Below, piece after piece: positions 33,312 through 48,406 of a stretch of 64,000 nt of DNA. The notes under the pieces were generated by a model, which did no database searches, was not told the origin of the DNA, and saw only the letters and a list, made by a program, of their open reading frames with translations. A program made the translations under genes and the position numbers. Origin of the DNA: Tuwongella immobilis. Lineage in GTDB: Bacteria; Planctomycetota; Planctomycetia; Gemmatales; Gemmataceae. Within the stretch, counting starts at the first letter, position 1. The number at the start of each line of letters is the position of its first letter. The stretch lies in contig NZ_LR593887.1 of NCBI RefSeq assembly GCF_901538355.1, positions 3,510,920 to 3,574,919 of the forward strand. The letters are read 5' to 3'.

Positions 33312-34667
33312 TCATATCAAGGCCGTTTCGATTCCATAGGGATTCTCGCCGGGTTCCAGGAGATTCTTGCCGAGCAACGCAAGCTCGCTTTCCCGATTGA
33401 TTGACCGAACATCGCGCACGCCTTCGCTAATCAACCGCCCCTGGGCGACGGCCCGCTCATCTTCGGATAGTCCAATGAGAATCACCGAAACAGCAAACCC
33501 CTGACGCCGAATCAACCCCAACGCAACGGCCGACTCGACCGGCACTTGCGGTAGCACCGCCAGCACCGTTGCATCGCGCGGCATTCGTGGCAGCATTTCC
33601 ATAACCAATTGCGGAAGCGCCAGCGAATCGGCCAGTTCCAGCCGGGCCAAGTAATCACGGATATTCGCAAAAACTTCGATTCCTCGGCGTGTCTCGACGT
33701 GGACAGGACGCAGCCGATCATTCGCTTCGTCCATCTGCACATTCTGCCGAACGGAATCCCGTGTCGCTTCCCCATCCACCGGACTGGGTGCCTGTTCCTG
33801 TCGAAGTCGGTCGGCGGCATCCCGCCCGTTGGAGACCAACCCCACTTGCTGACCCAATTCCTGGACAGCGTTGGCGAGCGCAACCGTCACAATCACCGCG
33901 AGTTCCGATCGGTACGGCTCTCCACGTTGATGATAGCCATCGGCATGAAAATCGAGCAGCAGCGTCGCCCCAGCCAGCGTCGTTGGTTCATAGATCCGCG
34001 AATGCAGACTCCCGGTTCGCGCCGTGGCCCGCCAGTGGACCCGCTGCAGTGGATCGCCCAGGCGATACGGGCGAACCCCCGCCGTGCGAGTGGGATCTTC
34101 AAACAACCAATGGGCGAGCTGCACCTCACCCACGGGACGCTCACTGGCAAAATCGTAATTTGGGAGCGGTCGAATTGGTGGATTCACCTGGAGATATTGC
34201 GGCCGCCCCAGCAGTCGATGCCGACGATGCAGCCCGAAGAGATCCCCCGTCTCGGCCACGAGTGGTCCAATTTGGTAAAACCCGCGCATTTCGCCATGCA
34301 AGCGATATTTGATGGTGATCGACTTTCCTGCGCGGATCATCGCAATTCGCAATCGCTTGCCCTTCATGCTCAGCCGCGTGGGACGTTGTCGCAGGGCCAA
34401 CGTGGGGAGTAAGTCTTCGACCAGCACCCAAGCAATCGGCCACCGTCCGCGATTGTGGAGCCGAATTTTCACTTCAATCGATTGCCCCACTTCGATGGGC
34501 GATTCAATCGGTTCCCGCTCGATTTCGAGGCTTCGCACCCATTCCCTTGCCAGATAACGACTTCCAATTGCAATGGCGAACAGCGTGTAGCTGGCATACA
34601 CGATCAGACCCGCTTCCAACACGGTTGCAATCAACAGCAACGCACCAATGCCCAAGAACCAGCGCAT
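33312..34667 (-). CDS. DUF58 domain protein with N-terminal membrane helices
   Basis: This 451-residue protein starts with one or two hydrophobic helices (about residues 3-35). A beta-rich region follows, and then the DUF58 signature around [20 protein letters not shown] and the TLLLDF strand typical of a VWA-like fold. DUF58 proteins usually accompany MoxR ATPases and transglutaminase-like genes, but no MoxR gene is adjacent here. The ATG at 34667 follows GGAG, only five bases after the stop of the giant propeller gene, so the two are cotranscribed. The open frame extends upstream, but that part is a shadow of the previous gene. The function is unknown. Confidence 0.87.
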
Positions 34668-34672
34668 GGTGG

Positions 34673-37600
34673 TTACTCCGGTGCCGTGATGGCGGGGGAT
34701 GGTCCGGCGGCGCGAACGGCTGCCTCTCGAGATAATTCCAACAGCGTACCATCGCTCAACGGCACGAGCCAGGATTGCGGTCCATATGGCAGGATTCCGC
34801 CGGCACTCGCCGTCCCGACTGGAAATGGGAGCGTCTCGGTGATGCGCCCCGAATCGAGTCCCACGCGAATCACCCGATCCAAGAGCGTAATCCAAACTTG
34901 GCCATCGCGATACCGTGGCTCTTGAATCTCACCCGCTTGCGGCAGTTGCATGGTCCAACTCGGACTCGCATCGTTTGGATTCAGTGCCACCAGTTGAGCG
35001 CCTTGCACCACCACCAGAATGATTGGCCCCGTTTCGGTGGGCAAAACCCATGGCCCGGCGGTGAGCGGCCCGCTCGGGAATCGCCCCGCTGTCTCGCCAC
35101 GCCACTGGCGGACAGTCTGCTCGAAGGCCGCGCCTTGCAGCACGCTGACCGTTTGGGTGCGATCGCGGATCACCACCATCGGCTTGTCGCCGGGCATCGC
35201 CGCGATACTTCCCTGCAACGGTTGTAGCAATGTGCGTTCGCCGACAATCTCAAACGGCTGATCGGCGGGCCAGCGAATCCGCTTGAGGACACGATCACCG
35301 TCGGAGATGAGAAATTCGTCGCTCGAAATCGCCACGAGGATTGGCGGTTTGGCAGACGCAACGGCCTTTTCTCGCCACCCTGGTCCCGGTTCGGGGGAGA
35401 CGCCGCTCTTGAGCGGCAAGCGGTAGGTCGATCCATCCGCCAATGGAAGAATAAACGCATTGCCCAACTTGAGACAATCGCCTGCCAGCGGTGCATTGAT
35501 GCGATAGCGCAGGCGAGTCGCCGGTACACCGGAGCGCACTCGGGAGACTTCCAGCGCGGTTCCCCCATCGACTTCGATGGAGACGAATGCGAGTAAATCC
35601 GTCGCATCCGTCATCAGCGATGGAACGCCGACCAACTTGGCGATCGGTTTGGAGAAATCCGGACGATCGGTGACGGTTCGCCATTGCTCAGACAGTTTTG
35701 CATCCGTCGCCGGGTCGAGAATCTGCACCGCACCGGAGCGATCGAGAATCCCCAACCGGTCGCCGGGAATCGGCACGGCGGATTCGAGGCGATTGCCCAC
35801 CTGCCGCTGCCAGACGATCTTCCCGGTCGCCACTTCCAAATTCGTGACTAAACAGGTGTTATTCGCCTGATTTTGCGTCACCAAACAGACCATGTCCCCG
35901 GCAAATCGAACTTGCGCGGGATGCACCAACGAGCCAATCTCGAGCGGCGGTCGAACCATCGCCAAGCGTGGCCCGCGAATCGGATCGAAGCCGATCCCGC
36001 AAATATACAGACGATCGTTACAGATCATCCACAAACTGGTATCGTCCAGATACACTACCTGCGCGGTGCGTGGGATCTGCCCTGCGGGGGCGTTGGCTCC
36101 AGCCACCGCGGATGGTACCACCAGCCCGGTTTCGTTGACCCGCAACGTCTCGCGCAGCCAGGGGAACAGAATCGAGTCCCGATTCCCAAGTTGGTTGACT
36201 CCAAAGAGTCCCAACTCACCGCGATCGGTGACAATGGCCAAGCGTTCTTCATCGGTGCTGGGCGATCGGTTCAAACTCCCGAGCATCCCCAGTTCGTGTG
36301 AGACTGGGTCCGGCCACGGAGCTGGCGTTTGCACGGGCGGAATCGCGAACGCTCGCAGGCGAATGCGCTCGACTCCATCGGCCTGAACCAGCAGCAGATG
36401 CGCTGGCTGTTCCTCGGCGTTGCCCGGTTGGAGCATGATCGGTGCGGTGCGCAAGGAACGCGCAGGGTGGTTGGTCTTCAACAGCCCAACGCAGATTGGA
36501 TCGAGTCGCGAACCATCGGCGGCGAGTTTCTCGACATCAAAGACGAAGACATCGCGCTCTTCCGCTGGGAAGAACAGATACCCCGTTCCGGGTAATCGCA
36601 CTCCACCGGCATCGAGCCGACGTTCGGTAATCAGATTGCCCAAGCGGTTGCCGGTCGTGGTTTCAAACACGGCGATCGTCCCGCGATCATCGCGCAACGG
36701 TAGAAACGCTCGCCGACCAATCAGCACGGGCTGCCCAATCGGTGGATGTTCCAACGGTTGTTGCCACAATGCCTGTCCCGTCGCCAACAAGCGGGCCGTC
36801 AACAAGATTTGTTCCGCCTCTTGTGACAACACCAAGACGACTTCGGGAGGTTTGCGAATTTCGGGATTGCCCGATAACAACGGTGGCGGCAGCGATTCTT
36901 GATCGATGCCCACCCGAACAGCCCAACGTGGGGTGCCTTGATCGGCATCCAGCGCCACCAACACCCCTTTATTCTGAGCGAGAAACACCCCCGTCGCAGG
37001 CGCGGAGTTGGTGCGACGCATTTGCCATTCCAGTGGCACATCCACCGGCGTGGTCACGAGCATCTGCTGGAAGGCAGGTACTTTCGCAACCTGTGGCTCC
37101 GTCGGCGGTTCGAGCGCAACATAGCGGATGGCATCCTGTTGCGCTTTGCGGGCTTTGGCGAGAATGGCAAGAGCTTCCGAATCACGACGGAGTCCCTTGT
37201 CGTCAATCCAACGCTCCATTGCCTTAATGTTCGTCTCACTGGGGACTTCGCCCAGCTTTCGCAGATAGGCGACCGCTTCATCTCGGGCTCGACGGGTGGT
37301 GATCCGGGCGCGGATCGTCTCCACCTGTTTCGCAAAGTTGGAAGGTTGGGCGTCGCTCGGCTGGTAGCGCGTGTAGGCCTCCAGGAATCGCTCGATGGCG
37401 GGGAGCCGTTGTTCGACTGCCGCCAACTCCCCGTTGCCGAGTTTGTCCTCTGCCCCGGCGATGAGGTCTTCCACCAGCTTTTGCAGCGTCTCCCACAAAT
37501 CGACGGCATACCGATCCGGCTTTAGGAAGGGATCCTCCGCGTGATCGGTCACAAATTGATCCATCGCTTGCATCGATGCATCGGGTTCGGCCCGACTGAT

Positions 37601-40581: not shown

Positions 40582-40610
40582 TTGATTAGTCATCTGCGAC
40601 CGGGTTAAAT
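40582..40610 (+). promoter_or_regulatory. Putative promoter of YehP/L/M-like operon
   Basis: TTGATT (40582-40587) and TTAAAT (40605-40610) are 17 bases apart. Transcription would start near 40617, giving a leader of about 40 bases with GAAGGA before the first ATG. The operon genes that follow have gaps of 17 bases or less, so this may drive all five. Confidence 0.5.
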
Positions 40611-40656
40611 GTGCAAACCCTGTCTCCGATGCAATCCATTGAAGGAATTTGCGATC

Positions 40657-41100
40657 ATGTCCGAACTCATGGAATCGTTGTATTCCCGACCGGCGGAACC
40701 GCAGCCACCTCGTCCACGGAAGATCAAAACCGTTCCCTTCGTCGAATTGTACCGCGATCGATTGCAAGGGGTCGCCTCCAGCGATTCGGACATCGAACGG
40801 GTCTATTGTGCCTTTATCACGGCGGTCACCGGTGAGCATTATTCAAGCACGAATAACGATCGCCCCGATGCCGGCACCGCGAAACGCATTCGCTATCTGG
40901 TCGATGAAGCGTATGCCCAATATGGCGAGGCACGGGTTCGCCGGTTTCTCCAGCTTGCCCAAGATCCGCGCTCGCGTCTCGGCCCGCAACGCCGGGCACC
41001 CGCCAGCGAAGTATTCAGCCGATTCCTGAATTATCTCAAATTTCTCGATCGCCAAATCGCTGATCCCGCCATTCCGGAAATGGCGTGGTTTCTCGAATAA
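40657..41100 (+). CDS. Hypothetical protein, 147 aa, first gene of VWA/MoxR/DUF5682 operon
   Basis: No known family was recognised. The protein is soluble, has a Pro-rich, basic N-terminal segment (about residues 11-23), and then appears helical (DSDIERVYCAFITAVTGEHY; GEARVRRFLQLAQDP; the C-terminal FSRFLNYLKFLDRQI). The ATG at 40657 follows GAAGGA; the frame is open to 40609, but that start has no ribosome site and lies almost on the predicted -10 box. The next gene begins nine bases after its stop. By position it could be a regulator, adaptor or small effector of the ATPase system, but nothing in the sequence decides this. Confidence 0.85.
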   Translation: MSELMESLYSRPAEPQPPRPRKIKTVPFVELYRDRLQGVASSDSDIERVYCAFITAVTGEHYSSTNNDRPDAGTAKRIRYLVDEAYAQYGEARVRRFLQLAQDPRSRLGPQRRAPASEVFSRFLNYLKFLDRQIADPAIPEMAWFLE

Positions 41101-41109
41101 GGGGCCCGC

Positions 41110-42519
41110 ATGTCGCTACGTCAGCCACTGACCGTCCCCGAGGCGGTTTCCACCACGCAACAACTGATCGTCGCAATCGATTCGGTCCTGACGATCGGCA
41201 TCGGTCGACTCGGCCCCGAACAAACCGAAACGCTGTCCCGATTAACCCGCATCGCCACCGGCAGCCCGTTGGAGGTGCCGATTCGAGACGCGATTGAGGC
41301 GATCGGACGCAACGAATTTCAGGATAAGCACTTCTTGGCGATTGCTGCATTCCGCGTCGCGCTCCAAGGTGCAATTGCCGATCGACTCCGACACGTCGCC
41401 GCCGAGTCACTCGGACGACCAAGCCCCGCATGCGACGATCCCCAACCGATTCACCCGGCACCGATTGATGGTCCGGTTGGAAGTCGGCAAGAAGCGACGC
41501 GAAATTGGTTGATGGAACTGGCGATTGCGGGATTTCAGAATCTGGATGCATCGACAGTCGATCCATTCCTCACGACGCTGGAACGCCTGCAAGACGAACC
41601 AGCCGCCGCACGATTGGCCGCGCTATTGACTGGATTTGTTGGCGAACTCAACGCCGCGTTACCGCTGACGGATAGCAGCGTGCTGCCGACGTATCGCTGG
41701 TGCGATTTATGGAGCCGAGCGTTCGTTCTGGCCTCGCGATCGCTCGAATCCGCCGCAGGTTCGCAAGTCCATGGCACATTCTTCCCCATGGGCGTCGATT
41801 TGCGGCATCATGGATTTGTGGTGCAAGCCGAAGTCTACGGGATTCTCGAATCGCCGCAGGCGGAGTGGGTCCGCGTTCCCGTTGCATCCTACAAAGTCGA
41901 TGTATTAGTCGGCCCTGAGATGTTACGCAGCTTCGAAAGTCGGCTACCGCAGCTTTGGGAAGCACTCAAGTCGGGTAAATCGCTCCAAGTCAGCGATGCG
42001 GTCCGACTTCCGGGCGGACTCCTCCGACTCGATGGCGAGTTGAAGTTGGGCAGTGCGATCGATTTCACCGCGCTGACCGATCGTTTCGCCGTGGGTGCCG
42101 AGAATCTCCCGAAGGAAGATCCCCTTCCTGGTGCGGATCGTCACCCGCTGCTGCTGGCCGAGCCAGTGACACTCACCGGAGTTTCGGTACTTGCGGATTC
42201 CCCCGCACGATTGAAGCTCCCCGATGGCAGCGAGTTGGCAATCGCCACCAAGCGGATCAGTCCCAGTAGCGAACTGAATGTCAGCAATCTGACCAAGATG
42301 GATCGCGTATTCGGCCTGCTGCGATTCGATGGCAAAGATTGGTCGATTCAACCGCTGATTGCCTCGCTTTCGACCAAGAAAAATAGCGAGATTCGCACCG
42401 GAAGCAGCATCCTCGACGCCACTGCGAAGAAAAAGGGCGACACGTTGGAACAACTTCAGGAGCGAGCGAGCCGACTGCTTCGCGCCAAGCCCAGCAGTAA
42501 AACAGGGGCCACACCATGA
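41110..42519 (+). CDS. Hypothetical protein, 469 aa, in VWA/MoxR/DUF5682 operon
   Basis: No family was recognised. The first 210 residues look mainly helical (PEAVSTTQQLIVAIDSVLTI; ARLAALLTGFVGELNAALP). The middle, from about residue 225 to 425, looks beta-rich, with a GTFFPMGVDLRHHGFVVQAE segment and repeated LxLxDG-type strands. The last 30 residues are Lys/Arg/Ser-rich. There is no signal peptide, membrane helix or CxCx-CxH pattern, so it is not a SWIM zinc-finger protein. The ATG follows AAGGGG, and the stop overlaps the VWA gene by 4 bases, implying coupled expression with it. It may hold the position that SWIM or DUF5691 partners take in related operons. Confidence 0.88.
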   Translation: MSLRQPLTVPEAVSTTQQLIVAIDSVLTIGIGRLGPEQTETLSRLTRIATGSPLEVPIRDAIEAIGRNEFQDKHFLAIAAFRVALQGAIADRLRHVAAESLGRPSPACDDPQPIHPAPIDGPVGSRQEATRNWLMELAIAGFQNLDASTVDPFLTTLERLQDEPAAARLAALLTGFVGELNAALPLTDSSVLPTYRWCDLWSRAFVLASRSLESAAGSQVHGTFFPMGVDLRHHGFVVQAEVYGILESPQAEWVRVPVASYKVDVLVGPEMLRSFESRLPQLWEALKSGKSLQVSDAVRLPGGLLRLDGELKLGSAIDFTALTDRFAVGAENLPKEDPLPGADRHPLLLAEPVTLTGVSVLADSPARLKLPDGSELAIATKRISPSSELNVSNLTKMDRVFGLLRFDGKDWSIQPLIASLSTKKNSEIRTGSSILDATAKKKGDTLEQLQERASRLLRAKPSSKTGATP

Positions 42520-44153
42520 GCGACAACTCGCTGGCGACGACTGGCACTTCTGCGGACGATCTCGCCCTACGAAATCAGCGGCAGGTGATCTTCTGGCGGC
42601 TCTTGGCCACCGTCTTTGCCATGAATTCCAACGCGCCGAATTTCCAAGCGCTTGCCGAGGAAATCGCGGAATCACTGGAACTGCCTGAAGCGATTCTCGA
42701 ACCCACACTTGGAGTCGATTCGCTGATCCAGCGCTACCCCGATCTGGAGGGTGATTTTGATCGCCTCAAGGAGATTCTGACCGCGCCGGAGAATCCGCTC
42801 GCCGATCTCGCCGCCAATGACGATGCCGACGACGATGCGGAGGACTCCGACGACGATGCGGATGCCGATGCCGAAACGGAAGAATCGGCAGCGACGCCGA
42901 GTGTTCCTCCCGCAACGACGCAACCCCAAGCGAAAGCCGGACTTGCAACCGAAAGCGATGCATCGGCAGGTGGCCCGAGCGTGGCGGATGCGTTACCCAC
43001 GACAGCCGACGGCGAACCAAAGCCGGATTTGCGGCGCAGTCTGGTCTATTCCAAGCTGTTGCTCAACGTCTTTGGGCCGAATACGCAATCGCGGCAGATC
43101 ACGGCGACGCAGTACAACCAGTGGTGCAAAGACGTGGGTCGGCTGGAGGATGTCCTCGGCTATCGTCCGGGTGGTCTGCGGGGCAAATCCAACGCAGGCG
43201 GTTCGGGTTCGGGTGCGGGTGCCTCGTCGACTGGCACTGGCGGCGGGGTGCCGATCACCGATGAAGAATTGCAAGCGGGCATCAAGGCGATGGAAGGGCA
43301 ATTGATCGACCGGATGCACCTGCGCGAGGTGCTCAAAGACGATCAGATGGCTGCGAGTCTGACACCGTCGATGCCGCTGATGGAGCAATTGCTGCGGGAT
43401 AAATCGAATCTCTCTGGCAATGCCCTGAAGAACGCAAAATCGCTGATTTCCTCGTACATTCAGCAACTGGCGGATGTGTTGCGGTTGCAGGTCATGCGAG
43501 CCGTGAAGGGGAAACTCGATCGCTCGGTTCCACCGAAACGGGTGTTCCGAAACTTGGATTTGAAGCGGACGCTTTGGAAGAACCTCATCAATTACAATCC
43601 CGAGGATCGTCGGCTTTATGTGCAGCAGTTGTACTATCGTCAGACGGCGACCAAATCAACGCCCACGCGGATGATCGTGGTGGTGGATCAATCCGGTTCG
43701 ATGGTCGATGCAATGGTCCAATGCACGATTCTGGCCTCGATTTTCGCCGGTCTGCCGCGCGTGGATATGCACCTAATGGCGTTCGATACGCAAGTCATCG
43801 ACTTGACGCCGTGGGTGCAAGATCCGTTTGAAGTGCTAATGCGCACGAATCTGGGCGGCGGCACGCTGATCCGCAAGGCATTGCTGGAAGCGATGCAGAA
43901 AATCGAAGAACCACGCAACACCGCGTTGGTGCTGATCTCCGACTTTTTCGAAGGTGGCAGCGACCAGGAATTGCTCGATACCATCGTCGCCATCAAGACT
44001 TCCGGCGTGAAATTCATCCCCGTCGGTGCTGTCACCAGCTCGGGATATTTCTCCGTCAGCCAGTTCTTCCGCACCAAGTTGAAGGAACTCGGCACCCCCA
44101 TTTTGACTGGCAACATCAAGAAACTGATCAACGAACTCAAAAATTTGCTGTAA
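42516..44153 (+). CDS. VWA domain protein (YehP-like)
   Basis: This is a 545-residue soluble protein. An acidic stretch of Asp/Glu/Ala lies at about residues 101-125, then a linker, a helical middle region (about 165-370), and a C-terminal von Willebrand A domain. The MIDAS motif is intact: DQSGSM near residue 390, the threonine in RTNLGGGTLIRKA, and the aspartate in LISDFFEGG. The C-terminal segment reads GTPILTGNIKKLINELKNLL. VWA proteins paired with MoxR ATPases act as metal-dependent partners that deliver or remodel targets. It overlaps the preceding gene by 4 bases and precedes the MoxR gene by 17, so a complex with both is likely. Confidence 0.9.
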   Translation: MSDNSLATTGTSADDLALRNQRQVIFWRLLATVFAMNSNAPNFQALAEEIAESLELPEAILEPTLGVDSLIQRYPDLEGDFDRLKEILTAPENPLADLAANDDADDDAEDSDDDADADAETEESAATPSVPPATTQPQAKAGLATESDASAGGPSVADALPTTADGEPKPDLRRSLVYSKLLLNVFGPNTQSRQITATQYNQWCKDVGRLEDVLGYRPGGLRGKSNAGGSGSGAGASSTGTGGGVPITDEELQAGIKAMEGQLIDRMHLREVLKDDQMAASLTPSMPLMEQLLRDKSNLSGNALKNAKSLISSYIQQLADVLRLQVMRAVKGKLDRSVPPKRVFRNLDLKRTLWKNLINYNPEDRRLYVQQLYYRQTATKSTPTRMIVVVDQSGSMVDAMVQCTILASIFAGLPRVDMHLMAFDTQVIDLTPWVQDPFEVLMRTNLGGGTLIRKALLEAMQKIEEPRNTALVLISDFFEGGSDQELLDTIVAIKTSGVKFIPVGAVTSSGYFSVSQFFRTKLKELGTPILTGNIKKLINELKNLL

Positions 44154-44170
44154 CGGAAAGGGATACGATC

Positions 44171-45436
44171 ATGGCGAAGAAATCAGCGAAATCGGCGGCG
44201 GCGGCTCCCACGGAATCCCCGGCGGAAGTCACGACCGAAACCACGACGACTCCAGTTGCAGCAACTCCGGCCGTCAGTTCGACACCAGCTCCTGCCCCAG
44301 CAGCGGCGGCGAAGTCGGGCGGGGATACGATTTTGCGTCAACCGGCGGAAGTGAAATATGCCGATGAATTGGCGTATCTGATTGGCGTGGATACTGCACC
44401 GCGACCGTTTACCTGGCGATTGTCGCCGCGGATGGTGCGGACATTTATTCTCGGTTCCAAGCCATCGGATAAGCTCGACCGCGAAATCAAGCAGAAATTT
44501 TACGGCGATCCCAGCGTCGTGGAACGGGCGATTGTCACGTTGGCATCGGATCGCGGGTTGCTGCTGATCGGCGATCCGGGCACGGGCAAAAGTTGGCTGG
44601 CGGAATTGCTGGCGGCGGCGGTGTGCGGAAACTCCACGCACGTCGTGCAAGGCACCGCCGGAACGACCGAAGATCAGATCAAATACTCCTGGAACGTGGC
44701 GATGGTGATTGCCGCCGGTCAATCGCAGCAATCGCTGATTCCATCGCCGATTATGACCGCCATGAAAAAGGGCGAAATTGGCCGATTTGAAGAACTCACG
44801 CGCTGCACCTCCGACGTGCAAGATGCGTTGATCTCGATCCTTTCGGAAAAGTATGTCTCGGTGCCGGAATTGTCCGGCGGCGACGGGGTGGTCTTCGCTC
44901 AGCCGGGGTTCAACATCATTGCCACCGCGAATAGTCGGGATCGCGGCGTCAACGACCTGTCCACCGCGCTGAAGCGGCGGTTCAATTTCGTTCAGATTCC
45001 CGTGGTCACCAATAAGAAAACTGAAAAGGAAATCGTGCTGTTCCGCACCAAGGAACTGCTGGCTCGCAATCAATTCAGCGTCGATGTTCCGCCCGCACTC
45101 ATGGATGTGCTGCTGCAAACCTTTGCGGATATGCGACAAGCAGCGGCAGCGGCGACAAGCGACGATTCCAAGCTGGAATCGTCACTCTCCACGGCGGAAC
45201 AGATTGGCGTGCTGGAAGATGCGGTCCTGCATGGGCAGTTCTTTGGCCAGTCGATGCTGGATTCCGCAACCTTGGCGAAATCGATTGTTGGCACACTGGT
45301 GCGACGGATTCCGGAAGATGTCTCGATTTTGAACAAATTCTGGCATAGCGTCGTCGAAAAGCACGCGAAGGAAGATAAGGGCGAATGGGTGTCGTTTCTG
45401 CAAGGCGGAAAAGACGCGATGTCCAACATGAGCTAA
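44171..45436 (+). CDS. MoxR-type AAA+ ATPase (YehL-like)
   Basis: This is a 421-residue protein. Residues 1 to about 50 are Ala/Thr/Pro-rich and probably disordered. The AAA+ core has Walker A GDPGTGKS at about residues 134-141, a Walker B region reading GRFEELTRC where most MoxR proteins have DEIN, a sensor-1 asparagine in NIIATANSRDRG, and the arginine-finger region ALKRRFNF. The lid domain follows, with a Ser/Ala-rich insert. The acidic pair EE in place of DE is a small departure. It should form a hexamer that works with the VWA protein; GGAAAGGG precedes the ATG. Confidence 0.92.
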   Translation: MAKKSAKSAAAAPTESPAEVTTETTTTPVAATPAVSSTPAPAPAAAAKSGGDTILRQPAEVKYADELAYLIGVDTAPRPFTWRLSPRMVRTFILGSKPSDKLDREIKQKFYGDPSVVERAIVTLASDRGLLLIGDPGTGKSWLAELLAAAVCGNSTHVVQGTAGTTEDQIKYSWNVAMVIAAGQSQQSLIPSPIMTAMKKGEIGRFEELTRCTSDVQDALISILSEKYVSVPELSGGDGVVFAQPGFNIIATANSRDRGVNDLSTALKRRFNFVQIPVVTNKKTEKEIVLFRTKELLARNQFSVDVPPALMDVLLQTFADMRQAAAAATSDDSKLESSLSTAEQIGVLEDAVLHGQFFGQSMLDSATLAKSIVGTLVRRIPEDVSILNKFWHSVVEKHAKEDKGEWVSFLQGGKDAMSNMS

Positions 45437-45448
45437 CGGAGGCGAGTC

Positions 45449-48406
45449 ATGAGTCCGAGCAAATCGCCGCCGAATGCCGCGCCGCCGAGTGCGAATCCGC
45501 CGCTTCCGGGGGTGGATGCCCCGCTTCGCCAACAGCTGTTGGATGCCGCCAAACAATTCGGCGGGGGGGAAGATGCGCTCTCGAAAATCTGGGCGGGAAT
45601 CCTGGATGATGTCGATCGGCTGATGCACGAACGGCTGGAGATTTTCCCCGTTTGTCACCATTCGCCCGCTTCGGCGGTGCATTTGGTGCAGCGTCTCCGC
45701 CGTCAGCCGCCGCGTGTGATTTTCATGGAGATGTGCGAAGATTTTCGCCCGCTGTGCGAGAAACTCCGCGATTGCCGACTGCCGGTGGCGTTCCAAGCGT
45801 TCGCGGGTGCCTCGCAAGCCTTTCCCGCCAGTTGGACGCCGTTGGCAGTGGTGGCACCGCTAACGGAATTCTCCGCGGAATATCAGGCGATTGTCTACGC
45901 CATGGAACGCCCGACGACGGAATTGGTCTTCGTCGATCGCAGTGTCGATTTGTTGTTCCAATGGATGCCGCAAAAGGAAGATGAGCTCGAAAAGCATCTG
46001 GGCAAAGAGACCGGCGAGGGCGAAGCGCCCGATCCCGGCGAGGGCGAAGCGGAGGGACCGAGCAGCCACGGCACCGCCGTCGGAATCCAAATCGGCGAGA
46101 TCGAACCGACATTCGAGCAGTTCCGCGAATTCCTACTGCAAAACGCCCAGGTTCGCTACTTTTCCGAATGGTGGGAACAATATGTCGAGCAGGCGATCAT
46201 TGGCCGAGATTATGTCACCTATCGGCAAGTGATGGCGCTCGTGGGGAGTCTGCTGCGGAAACTTGGTCGAAAGGACGATGACCTGGAATCCGACCGCAAG
46301 CGTGAACGATTCATGTGGACGCGGATGAAGGAGTATCTGCGCGAACATGCGATTGCGCCGGAAGATGCGCTGTACATCTGCGGGGCGGCCCACATTGCCA
46401 GCGATGTTCCGGAATTCGGCACGCGAACGGATGCGACCTGGGAGATTCCCGCGCGCTCGCCAACGGCGTGGTTGTATGGCACGATTCCGTCGAGCTATTC
46501 CGCAATCGAGGCGCAATTCCATCACCCGGCAGGCACCGTCACGCTGGCGGATGCGAATTGGCAGAAGGCGCAACGTGGCCTGGAAATCGAGCCGTTCATT
46601 CTGACAAAATCGGACGGCAAAAATGCGAAGCAGGCGCAGAAAGCGCTCGCGATTCCCGCCTCGCCGCATGTGCCGGCGGTGGCAAGTCAGCGGAGTGGAT
46701 TGCTGAGTTATCTCACCTCTCCGCCCGAAGTTGGGTTGGAGGATGAGGAACAGTTGCTGGCGTGGTGTGTGGGAATTGTCGGGTCGGCTCGGAAACACGG
46801 CTACATGTCATCCACCGCCGATTCTATCGCCATTTATCACACGGCCAAACTGTTGGGACAACTGCGAAATCGGCCGCATCCCTCGGCATACGATTTTCGA
46901 GATGCCGCGATTACCTGCCTGGAAAAAGACCGCACCCCGAAGAAACGCAATATCGAGCGATTATGCGAAATTCTTCTCGGCGGCGATCGATTCGGCCAAG
47001 TCGGGTACACATCGCTGCCGCCGCTGGCGCAGGATGTCTACGATCGACTCGCGCCATTGAATTTGAATCTCCAGGCAACCGCGCTGCAACGTGCCCTGCT
47101 CGATTTCCGGGCGCATCCGGAATTACTCGCCTGCTCGGATTTGCTCTGGAAACTGCGCTATCTGCTCGCGGAGCGAACCGTGCGGGTGATTATGGGGGAG
47201 CGCACCCTGGGCCACACCCCGGTGCAGGAATCGTGGGATATTGCCATCGGCAAGAATCAGACACCGCTGATTATGCTGGGCTACGAAGGGGTGACGATCG
47301 AGCAAGTGCTCGAAAAGCGCATCAAAGCCAAGGCATTTGCCAGCGAAGCGACGGCGGCGGATGCGCTGGCAATGGTCGAAGATACGATTCTCTATCTGAA
47401 AAGTATTCGACTTTCGGAAGAAATCGGCGAGCATGCGATTCGGTTGCTGCTCGAAGAAACTGGGGCGCAAACCGCTCCGGAAATCTTCGAGCGAGTGCGG
47501 AAACTGGTGGGATATTATCGCTCCACCGCGTCGGGGTTGCCGAGCTGGTTGAAGCGCTTCATCACCACGGGCTATTCGCACTATTCGACATTGCTGCCGA
47601 CGGCCTTTTCGGATCGCGGAACGACTCCGGAGCAGATTGCCGGGATGCTGTCGTTCTTATTCACGCTGGAAAGTCTGGCACTGTCGCTGGGCTGTCAGCG
47701 GAGTCAGTTGCTCATCGCCGTGCAACAAGCCGGGCCGGTAACCAGCGACCCGCCCAAGTTGGGACTGCTCTGGTCGGCGGAGTGGGTGTTAGGCTTGCGG
47801 ACCATCGATCAGATTCGGATCTATTTTCTCGATCTGCTCGAAAATCCGTTGGCGATCGGATCGTATCCCGGCTATGTGCAAGGGTTTCTGCTGGCGTTGA
47901 AATTTACATCGCTGGTGGGGCGGCTGGTCGTGGAACTGCTGTCGCGGGCGTTTGAGCGGCTGCCGGATCGCATTCTGCTGCCGTGGTTGCCGGGGTTGAT
48001 TATGACCCTGAAACCGCACATGGATACGCTGATGCCCGTATTGCTGAAAGAGGCATCGGCGTGCTTCCCGGCGAAGCTCAAGCAGTTGCTGAACTGGCAA
48101 GCGCCGTGGGATCGAGCGGCCCCGCCCAAACCCGCCGTCAGCGACAGTCGACCGACGTTCGAACGCACCCCGGAAGATGCGGCGATTTTCGGCCTGCTGC
48201 ACGCCCATCCACAATCCACGAATGCGCTCGCGGGCTTGTTGGGGGCCACCGTGCAATGGAATCTCGGCGGCGAATCCGCTGGAGAATCCGCCAGCACCAC
48301 TGTCGCGCTCACGCCAGAAGATCAACTCGTGGTGACACTTCTGCGCGAAATGGGCACGACGGCGAATAGTCTGAAAATGATCCTTCCAGGATCATCGACA
48401 CACTAA
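45449..48406 (+). CDS. DUF5682-family protein (YehM-like)
   Basis: This is a 985-residue soluble protein. The N-terminal half carries the family marks IFPVCHHSPASAVHL near residue 67, VIFMEMCEDFRPL near 90, and LYICGAAHIASDVPEF near 310. Paired His-containing motifs recall TIKI/EreA/TraB-like hydrolases, but that relation is inference. An acidic GEGE-rich insert is near residue 190. The C-terminal half is helical (about 480-890) with a low-complexity end. It starts 12 bases after the MoxR stop with GGAGG, and it is the last gene of the operon. By homology to the yehLMPQ set, it is probably the component processed or delivered by the MoxR/VWA pair, or the effector. No activity is proven. Confidence 0.88.
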   Translation: MSPSKSPPNAAPPSANPPLPGVDAPLRQQLLDAAKQFGGGEDALSKIWAGILDDVDRLMHERLEIFPVCHHSPASAVHLVQRLRRQPPRVIFMEMCEDFRPLCEKLRDCRLPVAFQAFAGASQAFPASWTPLAVVAPLTEFSAEYQAIVYAMERPTTELVFVDRSVDLLFQWMPQKEDELEKHLGKETGEGEAPDPGEGEAEGPSSHGTAVGIQIGEIEPTFEQFREFLLQNAQVRYFSEWWEQYVEQAIIGRDYVTYRQVMALVGSLLRKLGRKDDDLESDRKRERFMWTRMKEYLREHAIAPEDALYICGAAHIASDVPEFGTRTDATWEIPARSPTAWLYGTIPSSYSAIEAQFHHPAGTVTLADANWQKAQRGLEIEPFILTKSDGKNAKQAQKALAIPASPHVPAVASQRSGLLSYLTSPPEVGLEDEEQLLAWCVGIVGSARKHGYMSSTADSIAIYHTAKLLGQLRNRPHPSAYDFRDAAITCLEKDRTPKKRNIERLCEILLGGDRFGQVGYTSLPPLAQDVYDRLAPLNLNLQATALQRALLDFRAHPELLACSDLLWKLRYLLAERTVRVIMGERTLGHTPVQESWDIAIGKNQTPLIMLGYEGVTIEQVLEKRIKAKAFASEATAADALAMVEDTILYLKSIRLSEEIGEHAIRLLLEETGAQTAPEIFERVRKLVGYYRSTASGLPSWLKRFITTGYSHYSTLLPTAFSDRGTTPEQIAGMLSFLFTLESLALSLGCQRSQLLIAVQQAGPVTSDPPKLGLLWSAEWVLGLRTIDQIRIYFLDLLENPLAIGSYPGYVQGFLLALKFTSLVGRLVVELLSRAFERLPDRILLPWLPGLIMTLKPHMDTLMPVLLKEASACFPAKLKQLLNWQAPWDRAAPPKPAVSDSRPTFERTPEDAAIFGLLHAHPQSTNALAGLLGATVQWNLGGESAGESASTTVALTPEDQLVVTLLREMGTTANSLKMILPGSSTH

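Follow-up and report, generated by a model that had tools for sequence, protein, structure and literature searches.

A 469-aa protein, here called P0001 and encoded on the forward strand at positions 41110–42519 of a 64,000-nt stretch of the Tuwongella immobilis genome (the window), was found to belong to an uncatalogued family that forms a variant of the yehLMPQ-like MoxR–VWA–DUF5682 machines. We consider it fairly probable that P0001 belongs to the core of a machine encoded by five genes (operon type III below), in which it would be a fusion of two proteins known separately from a sister operon (c7 and c6), would dock on the VWA protein and would, together with a finger protein, do the job of a SWIM protein.

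Specifically, a yehLMP-type core of three adjacent forward-strand genes follows P0001. They encode a YehP-like VWA_CoxE protein of 545 aa (42516–44153; PF05762, 2.1e-33), a YehL-like MoxR-type AAA+ ATPase of 421 aa (44171–45436; AAA_5, PF07728, 2.1e-38), also placed by a MoxR tree, and a YehM-like DUF5682 protein of 985 aa (45449–48406; PF18934, 3.1e-29). Family profiles recovered YehP (3e-63), YehL (3.6e-92) and YehM (5e-13) of E. coli K-12, where yehL, yehM, yehP and yehQ encode the MoxR, DUF5682, VWA and SWIM proteins, respectively. The three core subunits are homologous by profile in the two systems, whereas the gene order differs and the single SWIM protein YehQ stands against a finger protein plus P0001 in the window. 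No sequence match to YehQ was detectable with the P0001 profile. In the literature searched, we found no description of the function of the yehLMPQ system and no naming of DUF5682 or DUF5691, and two or more of the gene names yehL, yehM, yehP and yehQ occurred together in only two papers, both of them genome reports that mention each name once. The window DUF5682 protein covers only positions 3–472 of the 727 of the Pfam family, nearly all of which are covered by YehM, and the C-terminus of the type III DUF5682 proteins may be a different domain. Elsewhere in the window, the protein encoded at 33312–34895 looks DUF58-type-like (a VWA-related family) by eye, and no MoxR gene was seen beside it.

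The P0001 reading frame starts with ATG and is intact, and its last four bases, ATGA (42516–42519, forward strand), contain both its stop codon and the start of the VWA gene. This overlap had been pointed out in an earlier note on this DNA and taken there to imply stoichiometric synthesis. Because ATGA forms the last four bases of 67 of the 80 P0001 homologs in the best 80 loci picked by MoxR similarity, the overlap represents a conserved translational coupling; stoichiometry does not follow, since an overlap alone is no proof of it. Searches of the P0001 sequence against Pfam, NCBIfam, PHROGs, PADLOC and PDB returned no family or relative, the domain and family scans gave no enzyme family, and no confident match to any characterised family was found, so the statement that it has no known domain (Pfam and NCBIfam) stands. 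Weak Pfam matches to RRF_GI (0.26), SpoVG and NTase_sub_bind (the last two in one member each) and a PDB match to Mediator-22 (0.01) were judged to be due to chance, and a phage origin was rejected, as there was neither a phage match nor a PHROG. The SWIM motif CxCx(n)CxH is likewise absent, as had been noted before: PF04434 was unmatched, and the two scattered Cys and seven His of the protein are not in a SWIM arrangement.

Single-sequence searches made P0001 look like an orphan, even when they were confined to its phylum or to the 25 genera of its family. No direct relative was found in 40 relatives or in a first scan of genome contigs, and 392 Planctomycetota genomes yielded none, with two sub-threshold fragments only. 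The first operons in the same bacterial family were found through the VWA and DUF5682 proteins and fell into types I and II. The window MoxR was then aligned with the type II MoxRs, and all GTDB genome contigs were scanned with this alignment; the best 80 loci were chosen for MoxR similarity, with P0001 playing no part in the choice. All 80 encoded a P0001 homolog (27–40% identity), and 78 encoded a homolog of P0002, the small protein encoded just upstream of P0001. The type III gene order is that of the window, namely, finger protein – P0001 – VWA – MoxR – DUF5682, and the loci came from Myxococcota, Cyanobacteria, Planctomycetota (Singulisphaera), Actinomycetota, Chloroflexota and Spirochaetota. 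Genes flanking these five were common to at most 5 of the 80 loci, indicating that the unit consists of five genes. On a Streptomyces fungicidicus plasmid (RefSeq/PLSDB), the five are annotated as hypothetical, hypothetical, VWA, AAA and DUF5682, the P0001 family thus being a "hypothetical protein" in that record.

An alignment of 24 diverse members contained 27 invariant columns, including the motifs P-x-x-R-W-x-D-L-W, H-P, G-L-x-R and a C-terminal L-x-E-R-x-x-x-L-L-R that was present in 24/24. The window protein keeps every invariant position, and its gene lies between the finger and VWA genes. Considering its homologs at the same place in 80/80 operons, these invariant columns and the shared ATGA ending, P0001 is a real gene. 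When the 392 sampled Planctomycetota genomes were searched with the P0001 profile, the only match was the window's own genome; this rarity within the phylum suggests that the type III operon was acquired laterally.

With 24 sequences, AlphaFold gave a P0001 model with a pLDDT of 87.5 and a pTM of 0.87. The helical N-terminal half and beta-rich C-terminal half expected from the sequence were both recovered: bundle 1 spans residues 11–101 (41140–41412), bundle 2 spans residues 122–209 (41473–41736) and ends in P-x-x-R-W-x-D-L-W (193–201), and the beta-rich half spans residues 218–429 (41761–42396), all on the forward strand. The beta half carries the signature G-L-x-R-x-D...Q-P-L and is OB-like by weak fold match in Foldseek. 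Against PDB, P0001 had a best E of 4.6e-3, all matches being above E = 0.001 with a TM of about 0.2. A C-terminal helix (residues 445–458; 42442–42483) holds the invariant L-x-E-R-x-x-x-L-L-R (449–458), which is probably a docking motif. The tail is basic, as proposed (net charge +4), while the beta half has a net charge of −2 (family median −5), and the whole protein is also net acidic.

Sister operons provided relatives of P0001 under other names. In Planctomycetia, type I operons have the order SWIM – DUF5691/HEAT – MoxR – DUF5682 – VWA, and type II operons, present in 17 of 298 Planctomycetia genomes, have the order c3 – c7 – c6 – MoxR – DUF5682 – VWA. The P0001-family HMM found only c6 proteins among 2308 ORFs of the Planctomycetia loci (4e-5 and 0.0021, the former within the beta half), and, reciprocally, the c6 HMM found only P0001 homologs among 5747 ORFs of type III loci (0.007 and 0.035). 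In hhalign, family columns 122–419 aligned with c6 over 290 columns (P = 0.0017) and columns 19–71 with c7 (P = 0.0037), each beating 25/25 column shuffles and the reversed profile, whereas single-sequence hhalign of P0001 against c6, SWIM and DUF5691 proteins gave no informative score. The homology to c7 plus c6 is therefore collinear and beyond chance, bundle 1 being the counterpart of c7 and bundle 2 that of the c6 N-terminus, and on these profile comparisons a fusion of the two is the best reading of P0001. The earlier note was right to see in it an unrecognised partner of the VWA protein and had envisaged a new module; P0001 is, however, neither restricted to this genome nor an isolated module, but a subunit conserved across phyla with homologs in another operon type.

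The MoxR tree split exactly by accessory set, SWIM plus DUF5691/HEAT (type I), finger plus c7 plus c6 (type II) and finger plus P0001 (type III), with supports of 100/100, 89/94 and 100/100, respectively. The window MoxR lies inside the type III clade, near those of Myxococcota and Singulisphaera. Since each set of accessory subunits goes with its own ATPase clade, the SWIM-type arm probably sets the target of the machine. Type I and type III operons share the three core subunits, and in its AlphaFold model the type I SWIM protein comprises a finger, a helical bundle and an OB-like beta half; however, type I joins finger and body in one protein, has its own DUF5691/HEAT subunit, which type III lacks, and forms a separate MoxR clade. 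Type II resembles type III in having split homologs of P0001 and a c3 protein that bears the P0002 finger, and differs in its several c3 paralogs with pentapeptide or BRCT fusions, its separate c7 and c6 genes and its VWA gene in last position. Some type II operons also contain a tandem pair of VWA genes (L062:11809–14216, L086:3968–6803).

P0002 is a stand-alone SWIM-like finger protein of 163 aa (40609–41100, forward strand), with an alternative start at an internal Met (residue 17, 40657). Its family matched the zinc-finger domain of c3 (hhalign E = 3.9e-17), in which the finger forms the C-terminus and is joined to either pentapeptide repeats or a BRCT domain, and the type I SWIM-protein profile found the c3 fingers at E = 2e-4. 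By sequence, the domain shared by the P0002 family and c3 is thus a SWIM-type finger, and the "missing" SWIM subunit of the window is probably encoded by the small gene just upstream of P0001. The earlier remark that a SWIM slot is occupied by a protein without the SWIM motif holds for P0001, but the operon does have a gene of the finger family, that of P0002, on which the earlier note was silent. In the relatives, the zinc site (40843–40887 in the window) reads C-STNNNRP-C-GG..G..-C-K-H, a motif found in 78/78, whereas the window copy reads SSTNNDRPDAG(gap)TAKRI; all four ligands are gone, and no Cys or His is kept. Among the P0002 copies examined, this loss occurs in this genome alone, the rest of the protein being well conserved. 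With a finger lacking its zinc ligands, the machine may work differently here. As a separate observation, type II loci (L062:1–6312, L060:11877–15936, L111:3010–6964, L116:9235–13455) encode SWIM-like finger paralogs, as many as five per operon, with either a BRCT domain or pentapeptide repeats of varying length at the N-terminus, and these paralogs are possibly a family of interchangeable targeting subunits.

The body of P0001 was also compared with that of the SWIM proteins. Sequence profiles of the two stayed at background level with no direct link, and hhalign with secondary structure gave no significant score. An AlphaFold model of one type I SWIM protein (pLDDT 84, pTM 0.64) showed a finger, a single helical bundle and a beta half, and its final domain shared the strand/helix order E-E-E-H-E-E-E with that of P0001. 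Baculovirus LEF-3 (7yny) was among the top three PDB matches of both models, with matches above E = 0.001, and many of the entries in both Foldseek lists were nucleic-acid binders with tandem OB folds (LEF-3, RPA, POT1, SSB and HIN). This weak but concordant agreement between predicted models suggests that the two bodies might be the same kind of part.

Taking these results together, we propose that P0001 would dock on the VWA protein and hold the SWIM-like finger protein, and that the two together would replace the single SWIM protein of the YehQ type. They would present a client to VWA–MoxR, and the MoxR hexamer would remodel this client through the VWA protein at the expense of ATP. The acidic beta half speaks more for an adaptor that contacts proteins than for direct binding of nucleic acid. 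The earlier note had suggested substrate recognition; such a role is possible, and, given the acidic overall charge and the constant sequence, that of an adaptor or scaffold fits at least as well. More tentatively, and with rather low confidence, the type III operons of at least six phyla might be regarded as a "split-SWIM" MoxR–VWA class, in which the finger and the OB-like P0001 would form a client- or nucleic-acid-recognition arm and the sister fingers with pentapeptide or BRCT targeting domains would make up a modular receptor platform.

Other MoxR–VWA systems offer partial parallels. In the classical ternary vWA–MoxR–VMAP systems, MoxR and vWA couple with a third component (PMC7159879). 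Type III operons likewise combine MoxR and VWA with a third component, in their case DUF5682 and finger/P0001, and they have no VMAP, iSTAND, FtsH or beta-propeller; Pfam scans of all five window proteins found no VMAP family. NorQ/NorD and RavA/ViaA also pair a MoxR ATPase with a VWA protein, and we know of no DUF5682, finger or P0001-type subunit in either. Remodelling of clients by a MoxR ATPase acting with a VWA protein is established for NorQ/NorD, where, as outlined in PMC13036017, a finger of the VWA protein is inserted into the pore of the ATPase and the linker of NorD undergoes twisting.

A nucleic-acid sensor, whose tandem-OB beta half would bind DNA or RNA and thereby set off the MoxR–VWA machine, would account for the tandem-OB binders that are frequent in the fold searches of P0001 and the SWIM protein and for the BRCT or pentapeptide domains fused to sister-operon fingers. 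However, every fold match lies above E = 0.001, the net charge is negative for the beta half and for the protein as a whole, and OB folds bind proteins too; we regard this reading as unlikely. Descent from a far-diverged DUF5691 protein (PF18944) came into consideration because DUF5691 proteins adjoin SWIM, MoxR and DUF5682 genes in related operons and because the earlier note had expected a SWIM or DUF5691 protein at this place. The profile comparison stayed at background, with at least 10 of 25 shuffles scoring as well, no DUF5691 match occurred in the 24 P0001 members or in the window's genome, and helical bundles with a beta half are unlike the HEAT repeats of the Gemmataceae counterparts, against whose profile P0001 also scored at background. 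With no PF18944 profile match, we rejected this descent as extremely improbable. The DUF5691 slot of Gemmataceae type I operons (L072:7353–9128, L073:5870–7660) itself holds HEAT-repeat proteins with a weak DUF5691 match over about 70 residues, or none.

The loss in P0002 of all four zinc ligands, which 78/78 relatives keep, together with the failure to find a second P0002 copy in the genome, might indicate that the operon is decaying here and that P0001 is a relic. All five ORFs are nevertheless intact, P0001 keeps every invariant position of its family, and P0002 still matches its own family with 192 bits, making decay very doubtful. It is highly unlikely, too, that P0001 acts as an effector, be it a toxin or an enzyme, which the machine sets free during a conflict response of the vWA–MoxR–VMAP kind: other MoxR–vWA systems have been argued to be conflict systems (PMC7159879), but P0001 belongs to no PADLOC or enzyme family, the loci have no flanking genes in common, VMAP, STAND and beta-propeller components are absent, and one constant subunit recurs across phyla in place of variable effectors.

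What had looked like one odd protein is now a defined family, so far uncatalogued, of over 80 members with fixed partners. Three operon types, with E. coli yehLMPQ included, are thereby joined as one group of machines, and named parts are now on hand for tests of what these machines do.
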